From assembly GCF_001715195.1 (NCBI RefSeq), contig NZ_MDWE01000008.1, positions 1-60,771 on the forward strand: a stretch of 60,771 bases of DNA, read 5' to 3'. The position numbers and the translations under genes are program-made. Shown piece after piece: positions 45,567 to 49,788 of this stretch. The notes below the pieces were generated by a model, which was not told the origin of the DNA, searched no databases, and saw only the letters and a program-made list of their open reading frames with translations. Source of the DNA: Rhodohalobacter halophilus (GTDB taxonomy: Bacteria > Bacteroidota > Rhodothermia > Balneolales > Balneolaceae). Numbering within the stretch: the stretch's first letter is position 1; every line of letters starts with the position of its first letter.

Positions 45567-47257
<1,691 letters not shown>

Positions 47258-47268
47258 GTCTGTTGTTG

Positions 47269-48375
47269 ATGAGCACTAAGAACTCATTTTGGGCTCAGTA
47301 CCACGTCAAGGCATCCGGCCGGGCTGATGCTGAGTCTAAAGCTGAGATGATCGCCATTGAACAATCCGTTGAGATGCCTCCTGAGGTTGTACCGGACTCA
47401 GCGAAGGGCAACATCGCTTACGTCACTGAACTTGAGCAGGTGAACGCTGATATCTGGTCAGCGACCATCACCTTCAAGACGGCTCTTTTTGATTCAGATA
47501 TTACACAGTTTCTGAATATCCTTTTTGGCAATATCTCGCTCCAACCCTGGTGCAGTTTGGTAGATGTAGATACCGATGTAATCAGTCAAACATTTCAGGG
47601 GCCTTCATTTGGGATTGAGGGTGTAAGAGAGCTTTTGGGCATTTCGAACCGGGCACTCAGCTGTGCCGTAATTAAGCCGATTGGCACATCCAGCAGAGAG
47701 CTTGCGACAATGGCCGAGCAATTTACATGTGGCGGTATTGATATTATAAAGGACGATCATGGGTTAACCAATCAACGATCCGCTCCATTCAAAGAGAGGG
47801 TTCAATTCTGTCTTCGGGCTGTTCGGGCAGGTGAACAAATCTCCGGAAAAAAGTCGCTCTACTTCCCAAATATTACAACATCTCCTCTTAAAATCGCCGA
47901 CAACTACAAGCTCGCTTCCGACTTAGGTGCTGATGGCGTATTGATTGCTCCTCAGCTAATCGGGCCGGAAACGGTTCATGAACTTGCAAGCTTGGGAGGC
48001 CTTCCGATCATGGTTCATCCTGCATTTAGCGGTTCCGTACTTAAAACGCAGGGTGGAATCTCTCCAATTCTTTATTTTGGAAAACTCATGCGAGCGTTGG
48101 GATCAGATATTTCCATCTATCCAAATGCAGGCGGAAGATTCTCATTTTCAAGAGATCTTTGTAAATCAATAAACAGCACCTGCCGATCAAAATTGGGTAA
48201 TCTTCAATCCACCTTCCCGGCACCCGGCGGGGGTGTTCGTTTGGATACAATAGCTGAGTTGGTTCGGGATTATGGTGTGGATACACTTTTTTTAATTGGC
48301 GGGAGTTTGTACAAACAGGGAGATTTACGTGATGCTGCCCAAGAATTTCAAAAAGCGTTAGATAGCCATGAGTGA
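47269..48375 (+). CDS. RuBisCO-like protein (form IV)
   Basis: I start at ATG 47269 (368 aa, MSTKNSFWAQYHV), following two in-frame TTG codons. The RuBisCO large-subunit fold is visible: an N-terminal domain, then the barrel with CAVIKPIGTSS (Lys of the TIKP motif, about residue 137), GGIDIIKDDHGL (Lys-Asp-Asp, about 159-162), IMVHPAFSGS (His) and terminal FPAPGGGVRLD and LFLIGGSLY phosphate-loop glycines. The carboxylating KDDE is KDDH here, and the loop-6 Lys region is replaced by NAGGRFSFSR, so it is not a CO2-fixing enzyme. An overlapping cupin gene follows, as in the methylthioadenosine-isoprenoid shunt of Rhodospirillum rubrum. Alternatives are DK-MTP-1-P enolase (MtnW) or a C4/C5 sugar-acid RLP. 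Confidence 0.9.
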   Translation: MSTKNSFWAQYHVKASGRADAESKAEMIAIEQSVEMPPEVVPDSAKGNIAYVTELEQVNADIWSATITFKTALFDSDITQFLNILFGNISLQPWCSLVDVDTDVISQTFQGPSFGIEGVRELLGISNRALSCAVIKPIGTSSRELATMAEQFTCGGIDIIKDDHGLTNQRSAPFKERVQFCLRAVRAGEQISGKKSLYFPNITTSPLKIADNYKLASDLGADGVLIAPQLIGPETVHELASLGGLPIMVHPAFSGSVLKTQGGISPILYFGKLMRALGSDISIYPNAGGRFSFSRDLCKSINSTCRSKLGNLQSTFPAPGGGVRLDTIAELVRDYGVDTLFLIGGSLYKQGDLRDAAQEFQKALDSHE

Positions 48376-48820
48376 TCGGTCAAAAGTGATTAAAGCCACA
48401 CCGGACGGATGGGAATCTATATCCAGACGTGAATACAAGACGGAAAAAACAAATTTTAAATCTGTTTCACGGTATTCACTTTTAACCGACGACTATCCGG
48501 ATCTGAACTTTCACACCCGATATTTTGAAATTGAGCCCGGAGGCTACTCATCTCTGGAGATGCATCGACATCCTCACAGCGTTGTAATTTTAAAGGGAGC
48601 TGGCTCTGTAGTATTAGACAACGAAATCAAACAGGTTCAAGAACACGATGTGATCTTTATTTCACCCAATACCATTCATCAGTTTTTAGCTGATACGGAC
48701 CGGGAATTAGGTTTTCTATGTACAGTTGATAGATACCGGGATAAACCGGTCATTCCGGATGACACTGAGATATCCAATAGAATAACTGACAAAAAAGTTT
48801 TGAAGAAAATCAGAAAATAA
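48368..48820 (+). CDS. Cupin-domain protein coupled to the RuBisCO-like protein
   Basis: This 150-aa single cupin overlaps the RLP gene by 8 bp. Metal-binding motif 1 is GGYSSLEMHRHPHSVVILKG (His residues at about 58, 60 and 62, with the usual Glu absent). Motif 2 is ISPNTIHQFLADT (His about 96). The preceding FHTRYFEIEPGG is typical of this subgroup. In Rhodospirillum rubrum a cupin acts after the RLP as 1-methylthioxylulose 5-phosphate methylsulfurylase and gives 1-deoxyxylulose 5-phosphate and methanethiol. The same role here is inferred from gene pairing and needs testing. Confidence 0.85.
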   Translation: MSDRSKVIKATPDGWESISRREYKTEKTNFKSVSRYSLLTDDYPDLNFHTRYFEIEPGGYSSLEMHRHPHSVVILKGAGSVVLDNEIKQVQEHDVIFISPNTIHQFLADTDRELGFLCTVDRYRDKPVIPDDTEISNRITDKKVLKKIRK

Positions 48821-48870: not shown

Positions 48871-48937
48871 GGGAGTAGCTCAGTGGTAGAGCATCCCGAC
48901 GCCTCGGGACCAATGTTGGGGGCGCGAGGTTCATTGA
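48871..48937 (+). pseudogene. tRNA remnant 1 (degenerate, carries TCCCGA hairpin)
   Basis: GGGAGTAGCTCAGTGGTAGA copies the 5' end and D-arm of the intact tRNA-Gly 95 bp downstream. The anticodon stem is replaced by TCCCGA-CGCC-TCGGGA (48894-48909). A CCAATGTTGGGG piece and a broken T-arm follow, and there is no 3' acceptor strand. It cannot fold as a tRNA. Confidence 0.75.
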
Positions 48938-48965: not shown

Positions 48966-49037
48966 GCGGGAATAGCTCAGTGGTAGAGCACAACCTTGCC
49001 AAGGTTGGGGTCGCGGGTTCAAATCCCGTTTCCCGCT
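48966..49037 (+). tRNA. tRNA-Gly (GCC anticodon)
   Basis: Acceptor GCGGGAA (48966-48972) pairs with TTCCCGC (49030-49036), with discriminator T at 49037. D-arm GCTC-AGTGGTA-GAGC. Anticodon stem CAACC / GGTTG with loop TTGCCAA, anticodon GCC. T-arm GCGGG-TTCAAAT-CCCGT (one G-U). CCA is not encoded. 72 nt. Lies 145 bp after the RLP-cupin operon. Confidence 0.95.
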
Positions 49038-49047
49038 CACTTATTAA

Positions 49048-49081
49048 GGCTCAATTTGTTCATCCAGATTGAGCCTTTTTT
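49048..49081 (+). terminator. Intrinsic terminator of tRNA-Gly
   Basis: GGCTCAAT / ATTGAGCC (49048-49055 / 49068-49075) with a 12-base loop and six T (49076-49081). It lies 10 bp past the tRNA and 23 bp before the GIY-YIG start. Confidence 0.9.
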
Positions 49082-49104
49082 ATTTATGCCTCAATTCAAG
49101 AGAT

Positions 49105-49371
49105 ATGTTCTATACCTACATTTTATATAGTCTGTCAAAGGACGGGTATTATATCGGATACACATCTTCAACTCCTCAAGATCGATTAAACCGACACAAC
49201 AACGGCATGACTCACTCCACTAAATCAGGAATTCCCTGGACAATTGTTTTCTCCAAATCTTTTGATGATAAATCAGACGCATTCAGGTTCGAAAACCTCA
49301 TAAAAAGACAGAAAAGCCGGAAATTTCTTGAACGACTGATAAACTCAGACGAAAATGAATGTAATTTTTAG
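49105..49371 (+). CDS. Small GIY-YIG nuclease domain protein
   Basis: This 88-aa protein (ATG 49105) is a stand-alone GIY-YIG domain: FYTYILYSLS for the GIY strand, then GYYIGYTSSTPQDRLNRHNNG with the YIG triplet, catalytic-type Arg (about 29) and His (about 32), and FRFENLIKRQKSRKFLERLI with the metal-binding Glu (about 65). Such proteins relate to the UvrC nuclease and to homing endonucleases. Their cellular role is mostly unknown. Its stop codon TAG (49369-49371) is the TAG of a tRNA D-arm remnant. A damaged second copy follows at 49506. An in-frame start at 49069 lies in the tRNA terminator and is rejected. Confidence 0.9.
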   Translation: MFYTYILYSLSKDGYYIGYTSSTPQDRLNRHNNGMTHSTKSGIPWTIVFSKSFDDKSDAFRFENLIKRQKSRKFLERLINSDENECNF

Positions 49372-49443
49372 CTCAGCGGAAGAGCATCCCGACGACTCGG
49401 TACCAAGGTTGGGGGCGTCCCGAGCAATTCGGGATTTCCCGCT
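49369..49443 (+). pseudogene. tRNA remnant 2 fused to the end of the GIY-YIG gene
   Basis: TAGCTCAGCGGAAGAGCA matches the D-arm of tRNA-Gly, and TTTCCCGCT (49435-49443) matches its 3' acceptor. Between them the anticodon stem and T-arm each hold a TCCCGA hairpin (49387-49402 with one mismatch, and 49418-49434). The 5' acceptor strand is missing, so it cannot be functional. Confidence 0.75.
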
Positions 49444-49505: not shown

Positions 49506-49788
49506 ATGTATTTCACCTATATAATCTTCAGCTCGTTGCCAGATCAGTACATATAGAGGTTATACTGCGGCAACACCTCAGGGCCGGTTGGACCGGCATA
49601 ATAATGGAATGACTCGCTCAACGAAATCGGGAATTCCGTGGGAAATTGTCTTTTTTAAATCTTTTGAGAATAAGTCTGGTCCCATCAAGTTTGAGAACTT
49701 TATCAAGAATCAAAAGAGCCGTGAGTTTCTTGGGCGACTTGTGAACTCAGGGGTTAACGAATGTAATAAATTGACACGCGTATTATAA
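49506..49788 (+). pseudogene. Second GIY-YIG copy, broken by a 4-bp insertion
   Basis: ATG 49506 opens MYFTYIIFSSLPDQYI, matching the first copy, then meets TAG. Removing TAGA at 49554-49557 restores Y-I-G-Y-T and an open frame through PQGRLDRHNNGMTRSTKSG and EFLGRLVNSGVNECN to the stop at 49788. The insertion therefore sits inside the YIG motif. Similarity to copy 1 extends over nearly the full length. Confidence 0.85.

Follow-up and report, generated by a model that had tools for sequence, protein, structure and literature searches.

The gene for a form IV RuBisCO-like protein (RLP) and the cupin gene that overlaps it in Rhodohalobacter halophilus likely encode the two-enzyme core of a shunt from methylthioadenosine (MTA) to isoprenoids. 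A known shunt would thus probably occur in a further phylum, Balneolota, with a probable change of thiol. The pair lies in the window, which here means the whole stretch of 60,771 nucleotides that was analysed (contig NZ_MDWE01000008.1). The features discussed below are as follows:

45940..45967, + strand: terminator-like hairpin between a STAS-domain gene and purA (matched to a consensus only; the region has 9 sites of this kind where 6.6 are expected)
45980..47257, + strand: purA (adenylosuccinate synthetase), ending 11 bp before the RLP gene
47269..48375, + strand: RLP gene of the DeepYkr type, 368 aa (ATG at 47269, TGA at 48373-48375), proposed 5-methylthioribulose-1-phosphate 1,3-isomerase
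47530..47532, + strand: RLP N88, a Lys in three MtnW references
47749..47760, + strand: RLP K161-D162-D163-H164; in place of H164, the residue table shows Glu for MtnW and RuBisCO
48368..48820, + strand: single-domain cupin gene, 150 aa (ATG at 48368, stop at 48820), proposed 1-methylthioxylulose-5-phosphate methylsulfurylase
48563..48577, + strand: cupin H66, H68 and H70 (HxHxH), conserved, which together with H104 would form the likely metal site
48719..48721, + strand: cupin C118, a Cys invariant in the alignment, proposed nucleophile accepting the methylthio group

Along the proposed route, MTA would first give methylthioribose 1-phosphate (a step for which searches of the genome yielded no canonical mtnP, mtnN or mtnK), and MtnA, encoded elsewhere in the genome, would convert this to 5-methylthioribulose 1-phosphate. 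The RLP would then shift the carbonyl to yield 1-methylthioxylulose 5-phosphate. The cupin would remove the methylthio group through C118, leaving 1-deoxyxylulose 5-phosphate (DXP) as input to isoprenoid synthesis. A low-molecular-weight thiol, probably bacillithiol, would then act as the reductant and set methanethiol free for methionine. What the analysis establishes is gene identities, families, co-occurrence and residue conservation; both conversions, the choice of thiol and what becomes of the methanethiol are inferred.

Judged by its sequence, its diagnostic residues and its place in the tree, the window RLP is a companion of Rhodopseudomonas palustris RLP1 and stands apart from MtnW and the sugar-acid RLPs. 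Its translation contains the three motifs CAVIKPIG, GGIDIIKDDHGL and FPAPGGGV, and it matches the Pfam family RuBisCO_large with 69.6 bits (cut-off 30.1), being the sole RuBisCO-family match in a search of the whole source genome. Named relatives are mostly from Balneolaceae and Balneolales. The top solved relative by sequence is 3qfw, the R. palustris RLP1, with 225 bits, compared with 149 for the best MtnW; identity is 36% to 3qfw over 343 columns and 29-31% to MtnW. The AlphaFold model (mean pLDDT 91.5) also finds 3qfw as its best fold match (TM 0.88/0.92), and the MtnW entries follow at ranks 3-9 with TM 0.86-0.89/0.79-0.84. The predicted fold therefore hardly tells RLP1 from MtnW, and residues discriminate better.

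Could the RLP be an MtnW, that is, the DK-MTP-1-phosphate enolase of classical methionine salvage? Six NCBIfam models match the protein, every one below its own cut-off, and the top scorer is indeed the MtnW model PRK09549. Its score, however, is 197.5 bits against a cut-off of 409, and a second MtnW model, TIGR03332, gives 153.5 against 513.6. The residues differ as well. K161-D162-D163-H164 occupy what we take to be the positions of the carbamylated Lys and the metal ligands of RuBisCO. N88, H164, N286 and R290 are identical in 3qfw and in eight RLPs of other loci, and the three MtnW references carry K, E, S and S instead, so the Lys and Glu of MtnW are replaced by N88 and H164; conservation of H164 in scanned loci is partly by construction, because the scan pattern IKDDHG[LI][AT] includes the His. 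Altogether, eight diagnostic residues match 3qfw (N88, K136, K161, D163, H164, H250, N286 and R290). Furthermore, ARD (mtnD) has no match in the source genome, and across the 128 genomes surveyed below no ARD match spans the full profile. With the MtnW rows also forming a separate clade, this assignment was rejected, and we regard it as very unlikely.

The phylogeny that the first-pass annotation had proposed as a check bears out its view of an RLP of the type found in Rhodospirillum rubrum and R. palustris (DeepYkr). In a tree of 24 rows, where 3qfw represents RLP1 and the R. rubrum RLP sequence is not included, one clade of 17 rows unites the window RLP and 3qfw with 15 others at support of 100/99, and the three MtnW rows lie outside as its sister. 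A quick 87-row tree recovered the same clade (SH-aLRT 99), into which 3qfw, the window RLP and every one of 71 loci fall; these 71 are the members of a set of 80 loci, described below, with an RLP frame of >=300 aa in the main cluster, and 9 were left out. AU tests that placed the window RLP with MtnW, the sugar-acid RLPs or the Chlorobium RLP all reject the placement. They are weak evidence, since the constraints also split the window row from a 62% identical neighbour, and we therefore rely on the 100/99 branch.

A sugar-acid enzyme of the OiaX or Burkholderia type would share the RuBisCO fold, and the OiaX model of NCBIfam does match the RLP with 65 bits. The cut-off of that model is 700, though, and identity is only about 25% both to 3nwr, the Burkholderia sugar-acid RLP, and to a second RLP in genome G016, which has a kinase-like gene (by eye) as its neighbour; these sequences are also distant in the tree. 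The assignment was rejected and seems to us extremely improbable. The second RLP itself (L186, G016:C11) belongs, with 393 bits, to the 3nwr type of Burkholderia, and the gene that it adjoins resembles a four-carbon sugar-acid kinase.

The partner gene fits the same picture. The cupin matches Pfam Cupin_2 with 38.4 bits (cut-off 27.2), and at E<=1e-20 only three distinct solved sequences match it, namely 3ibm, 3kgz and Rru_A2000 (3jzv). A fold search with the predicted model (pLDDT 89.2) also ranks these three proteins first: 3kgz with TM 0.88/0.91, 3jzv with 0.80/0.81 and 3ibm with about 0.73/0.75 at an rmsd of 10. As had been proposed from the first reading, the cupin is thus of the Rru_A2000 type by its nearest solved relatives and its fold matches. 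C118, H66, H68, H70 and H104 are invariant in the window cupin and 14 relatives of the order. Among the cupins that flank an RLP in the best 80 of 550 scanned loci, the four His are present in 53 of 53 and C118 in all 52 that could be read at this position. In the R. rubrum enzyme, an active-site Cys takes the methylthio group.

Cupins are functionally diverse, and the window cupin has weak matches to models of ureidoglycine aminohydrolase and mannose-6-phosphate isomerase; other phyla, moreover, carry a split transketolase in its place beside the RLP. One may therefore read it as a sugar-phosphate isomerase or a regulator, with the RLP product going to another enzyme. Yet Rru_A2000 and its kin are nearest both by sequence and by fold, C118 and the His set are kept, and the cupin co-occurs almost perfectly with the RLP, so that we hold this reading to be decidedly unlikely.

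The coordinates, translations and Pfam matches agree with the first-pass annotation on an RLP with three motifs, a single-domain cupin and an 8-bp overlap. Its word "fused" does not hold: the end of the RLP gene overlaps the start of the cupin gene by 8 nt (48368-48375, + strand), and the two genes are otherwise separate. The overlap suggests translational coupling, and the same 8 nt recur in 7 of 41 measured RLP-cupin neighbour pairs. Directly upstream of the RLP gene, purA was found in 17 of 18 fetched neighbourhoods, the remaining one being a contig end. Four further genomes have an engB-like or serA-like neighbour (by eye) next to the RLP, with the cupin at a distance of 5 to 12 kb. Upstream of purA in the window are secD and secF (read from the sequence) and the STAS-domain gene. 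Given the hairpin between the STAS gene and purA, purA, RLP and cupin possibly form one transcription unit; a promoter scan of the region gave nothing useful.

Downstream of the cupin, between 48870 and 49767, a tRNA-Gly gene (48966-49038) is flanked by two tRNA-like stretches of 49 nt (48876-48924 and 49369-49417) that are 90% alike. Near it lies a GIY-YIG nuclease gene (49069-49371), and a second copy, 70% alike, occupies 49552-49767. The whole stretch is perhaps a small mobile element using tRNA-Gly.

To quantify co-occurrence we used 128 genomes of the order, which are related to each other and in part incomplete. The RLP was found in 73 and the cupin in 69, with both in 68; five genomes have the RLP without the cupin and one has the cupin without the RLP. 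Since both frames are conserved and co-occur in 68 of 128 genomes, the pair is not a product of chance. The gene for MtnA follows the RLP as well. At E<=0.001, mtnA matches were present in 94 of 128 genomes (87 over the cut-off), namely in 71 of the 73 RLP genomes versus 23 of the 55 without RLP. Over the cut-off, mtnA was found in 65 of the 73 RLP genomes, the rest having fragments or none. Counted by genus, it occurred in 24 of 24 RLP genera versus 6 of 15 other genera. Fisher values computed for these co-occurrences overstate them, because the genomes are related and partly incomplete. Points that speak against the shunt include the 23 genomes with mtnA and no RLP, those RLP loci described below that have neither a cupin nor a transketolase, and the identity of the window cupin to Rru_A2000, which is 39% (48 of 122 columns) and so below the >45% at which PMC5893883 listed homologues.

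The remaining steps of the pathway were searched in the source genome. Its mtnA gene (C37:30203-31192, 451.6 bits, cut-off 279) lies away from the RLP-cupin locus and one gene from a cysteine-synthase-like gene. No match was detected there for mtnD, one of the genes (mtnB-mtnE) whose absence the first-pass annotation had proposed to check. Across the 128 genomes, 16 had weak ARD matches, 5 of them past the 27-bit cut-off on short stretches. ARD belongs to a cupin-fold family, and we therefore took these partial matches as other cupins. The MTA phosphorylase mtnP was over its cut-off in 0 of 128 genomes (weaker PNP-like matches occurred in 128 of 128), MtnK likewise in 0 of 128 (17 had weak matches), and MtnN had no match in the source genome, with 22 of the 128 genomes matching and 2 over the cut-off. 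The first-pass annotation had asked for mtnA and mtnP in the genome and had named the lack of mtnA/mtnP as grounds against the shunt; mtnA is there, and mtnP is not among the genes recognised.

A generic purine nucleoside phosphorylase (PNP) may stand in for mtnP. The source genome has only three PNP_UDP_1 members, two PNPs and an AMP nucleosidase. The 276-aa PNP (G000:C28) was considered for this role on account of its TD, which reads TN in the 264-aa PNP; but TD is also found in the solved PNPs 4lna and 4m1e, and the 276-aa protein passes the inosine/guanosine model (303.1 vs 293.35). At the other end of the route, the source genome contains a Dxs gene, which would make the shunt a secondary source of DXP. 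Elsewhere in the order, two loci (L071 and L072, from G018 and G043) show transporter genes followed by genes for an MTAP-like phosphorylase and an MtnK-like kinase, which may together serve the salvage of a nucleoside or sugar. A Chloroflexota RLP locus carries a phosphorylase (L180:7142-7933) that exceeds the cut-off of the methylthioinosine phosphorylase model (239 vs 223), a hint of a route by way of a deaminase.

MtnP passed its cut-off in none of the 128 genomes, which leaves room for a feed other than MTA. In another candidate reading, the main substrate would be the 5-deoxy analogue. Radical SAM enzymes would supply 5'-deoxyadenosine, which would be carried to 5-deoxyribulose 1-phosphate via MtnA and from there directly to DXP by the RLP, the cupin serving only a methylthio branch or having another role. 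By structure, 1,3-isomerisation of 5-deoxyribulose 1-phosphate should indeed yield DXP, and PMC6079011 describes a salvage of 5-deoxyribose that proceeds through phosphorylation, isomerisation and aldol cleavage. Against this, the cupin would be idle in 68 of 73 RLP genomes, and the excerpt of PMC5893883 reports R. palustris RLP1 as active on the methylthio compound, a 1,3-isomerase in vivo as judged from deletions and metabolites. We consider the deoxy substrate unlikely and retain the methylthio shunt as the preferred reading.

Which thiol would serve the cupin? BshC was found in 119 of 128 genomes, including the source genome (492 bits, cut-off 265.8). GSH-S_ATP (PF02955) matched 114 of 128 genomes and also the B. 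subtilis control, so that this family is unspecific as a test for glutathione synthetase. Five genomes (G029, G057, G063, G064 and G075) score 177-231 bits and the others 81 bits or less; four of the five, all but G029, carry the RLP. In the source genome the sole GSH-S_ATP match is RimK by NCBIfam, with 375.7 bits (cut-off 331) compared with 77 for the glutathione synthase model (cut-off 299). As BshC is present and the only glutathione-synthetase-like match is RimK, bacillithiol is probably the reductant of the cupin in this genome. This fits the earlier suggestion that a thiol other than glutathione would be needed. In the parts of these papers available to us, PMC4334135 reports that a glutathione-methylthiol adduct forms in vivo, and PMC6302742 suggests other thiols for the reaction, bacillithiol in Firmicutes.

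Loci around mtnA in other genera carry genes of thiol metabolism. Of 12 mtnA loci, 9 have a neighbouring gene for gamma-glutamyltransferase, which is a glutathione-linked enzyme, and 6 have one for a YtxJ-like bacilliredoxin (by likeness; the families were checked in L034 only). The loci concerned are L032, L034, L035, L036, L037, L038, L039, L040 and L043, and the arrangement also occurs in genomes without RLP. One genome, G022 (L035), has an O-acetylhomoserine-sulfhydrylase-like gene near mtnA (by eye). With a YtxJ-type protein and a gamma-glutamyltransferase beside mtnA, both thiols leave traces in the order. In view of the gamma-glutamyltransferase and of the five genomes with a strong glutathione-synthetase-like match, glutathione may serve some members.

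How far does the RLP spread beyond the order? We scanned genome contigs with two patterns, IKDDHG[LI][AT] and P[IV][MI][AV]HP[AS]FS, and obtained at least 550 relatives, which may include other RLP types because the second pattern also fits Geobacillus MtnW. The analysis covered the 80 best of them. A number of the 80 lie in genomes that also belong to the 128-genome survey, so the two sets of counts are not additive, and the RLPs of L124 and L061 are identical. Among the best 80 of 550, the RLP is flanked by a cupin in 53, by a split transketolase in 14, by neither in 13 (in some of which the contig ends) and by both in 0. The 41 of these 80 that are not labelled Balneolota or Bacteroidota comprise 16 with cupin, 14 with transketolase, 11 with neither and 0 with both; one of the 16, L151, is without a phylum label and groups among Balneolota in the 87-row tree.

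The split transketolase lies upstream of the RLP in L152, L175, L154, L131, L146, L165, L174, L177, L178, L180, L181, L182, L184 and L185. Both halves were matched in 13 of the 14; the contig of L181 begins inside the C half. In Clostridium ljungdahlii, a transporter gene (by eye) is followed by mtnK (432.6 bits, cut-off 275), then by mtnA (by likeness), the N half and the C half of the transketolase, and the RLP, and in C. drakei, too, the split transketolase and the RLP stand in one run with mtnK and mtnA. Such a run strengthens the case for an RLP acting on the product of MtnA. Since the cupin and transketolase neighbourhoods exclude each other among these loci, we tentatively propose that the DeepYkr RLP could be a hub whose product, 1-methylthioxylulose 5-phosphate, would be opened by either of two unrelated enzymes, by the thiol-dependent cupin (on bacillithiol in Balneolota) or, in Clostridia and several other phyla, by a split transketolase that would give glyceraldehyde 3-phosphate and methanethiol in a phosphoketolase-like manner. 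This is a possibility that we hold with some doubt. Among the papers listed by searches of the open-licence literature, none was seen to describe the arrangement of RLP and split transketolase.

That literature also yielded nothing on Balneolaeota and methionine salvage, and no description of the shunt in this lineage, as the first-pass annotation had supposed. In the portions available, PMC6146748 links Balneola and RLP only through a reference, and PMC9560492 matches RuBisCO-like and Balneola. Of 181 genomes without Dxs, 5 contained both genes according to PMC10663253. In PMC5893883, the combination of RLP, cupin, mtnP and mtnA is listed for at least 25 species (13 proteobacteria, 9 Firmicutes and 2 Deinococcus). 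The 53 cupin loci among the best 80 of 550 suggest that the RLP-cupin pair is commoner than these "at least 25 species", for which mtnP and mtnA were also required. Oxygen-independent methionine salvage, shown in two purple bacteria, would thereby extend to a phylum where most RLP genomes carry cupin and mtnA, and the use of bacillithiol by the cupin becomes a testable question.

Compared with known systems, the locus is closest to the MTA-isoprenoid shunt of R. rubrum (RLP Rru_A1998, cupin Rru_A2000), sharing a DeepYkr RLP with a cupin, mtnA, and no mtnD found. It differs in that no canonical mtnP was found, BshC is present and GshB is not recognisable, the RLP and cupin genes overlap and follow purA, and the phylum is Balneolota. 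R. palustris supplies the top solved relative of the RLP by sequence and fold (RLP1, 3qfw), with the same diagnostic residues, and a cupin (3kgz) that is the top fold match and the second by sequence; unlike the source genome, it has mtnP and a second RLP according to the excerpt of PMC5893883, and RLP identity is 36%. The MtnW of Bacillus and Geobacillus shares the RuBisCO fold and forms the sister clade, but the window RLP falls below the MtnW model cut-offs, differs at the Lys and Glu positions and has no mtnD match in its genome. The sugar-acid RLPs (OiaX and Burkholderia 3nwr) likewise share the fold, but they are distant in the tree and have other neighbours, and the window RLP scores far below the cut-off.
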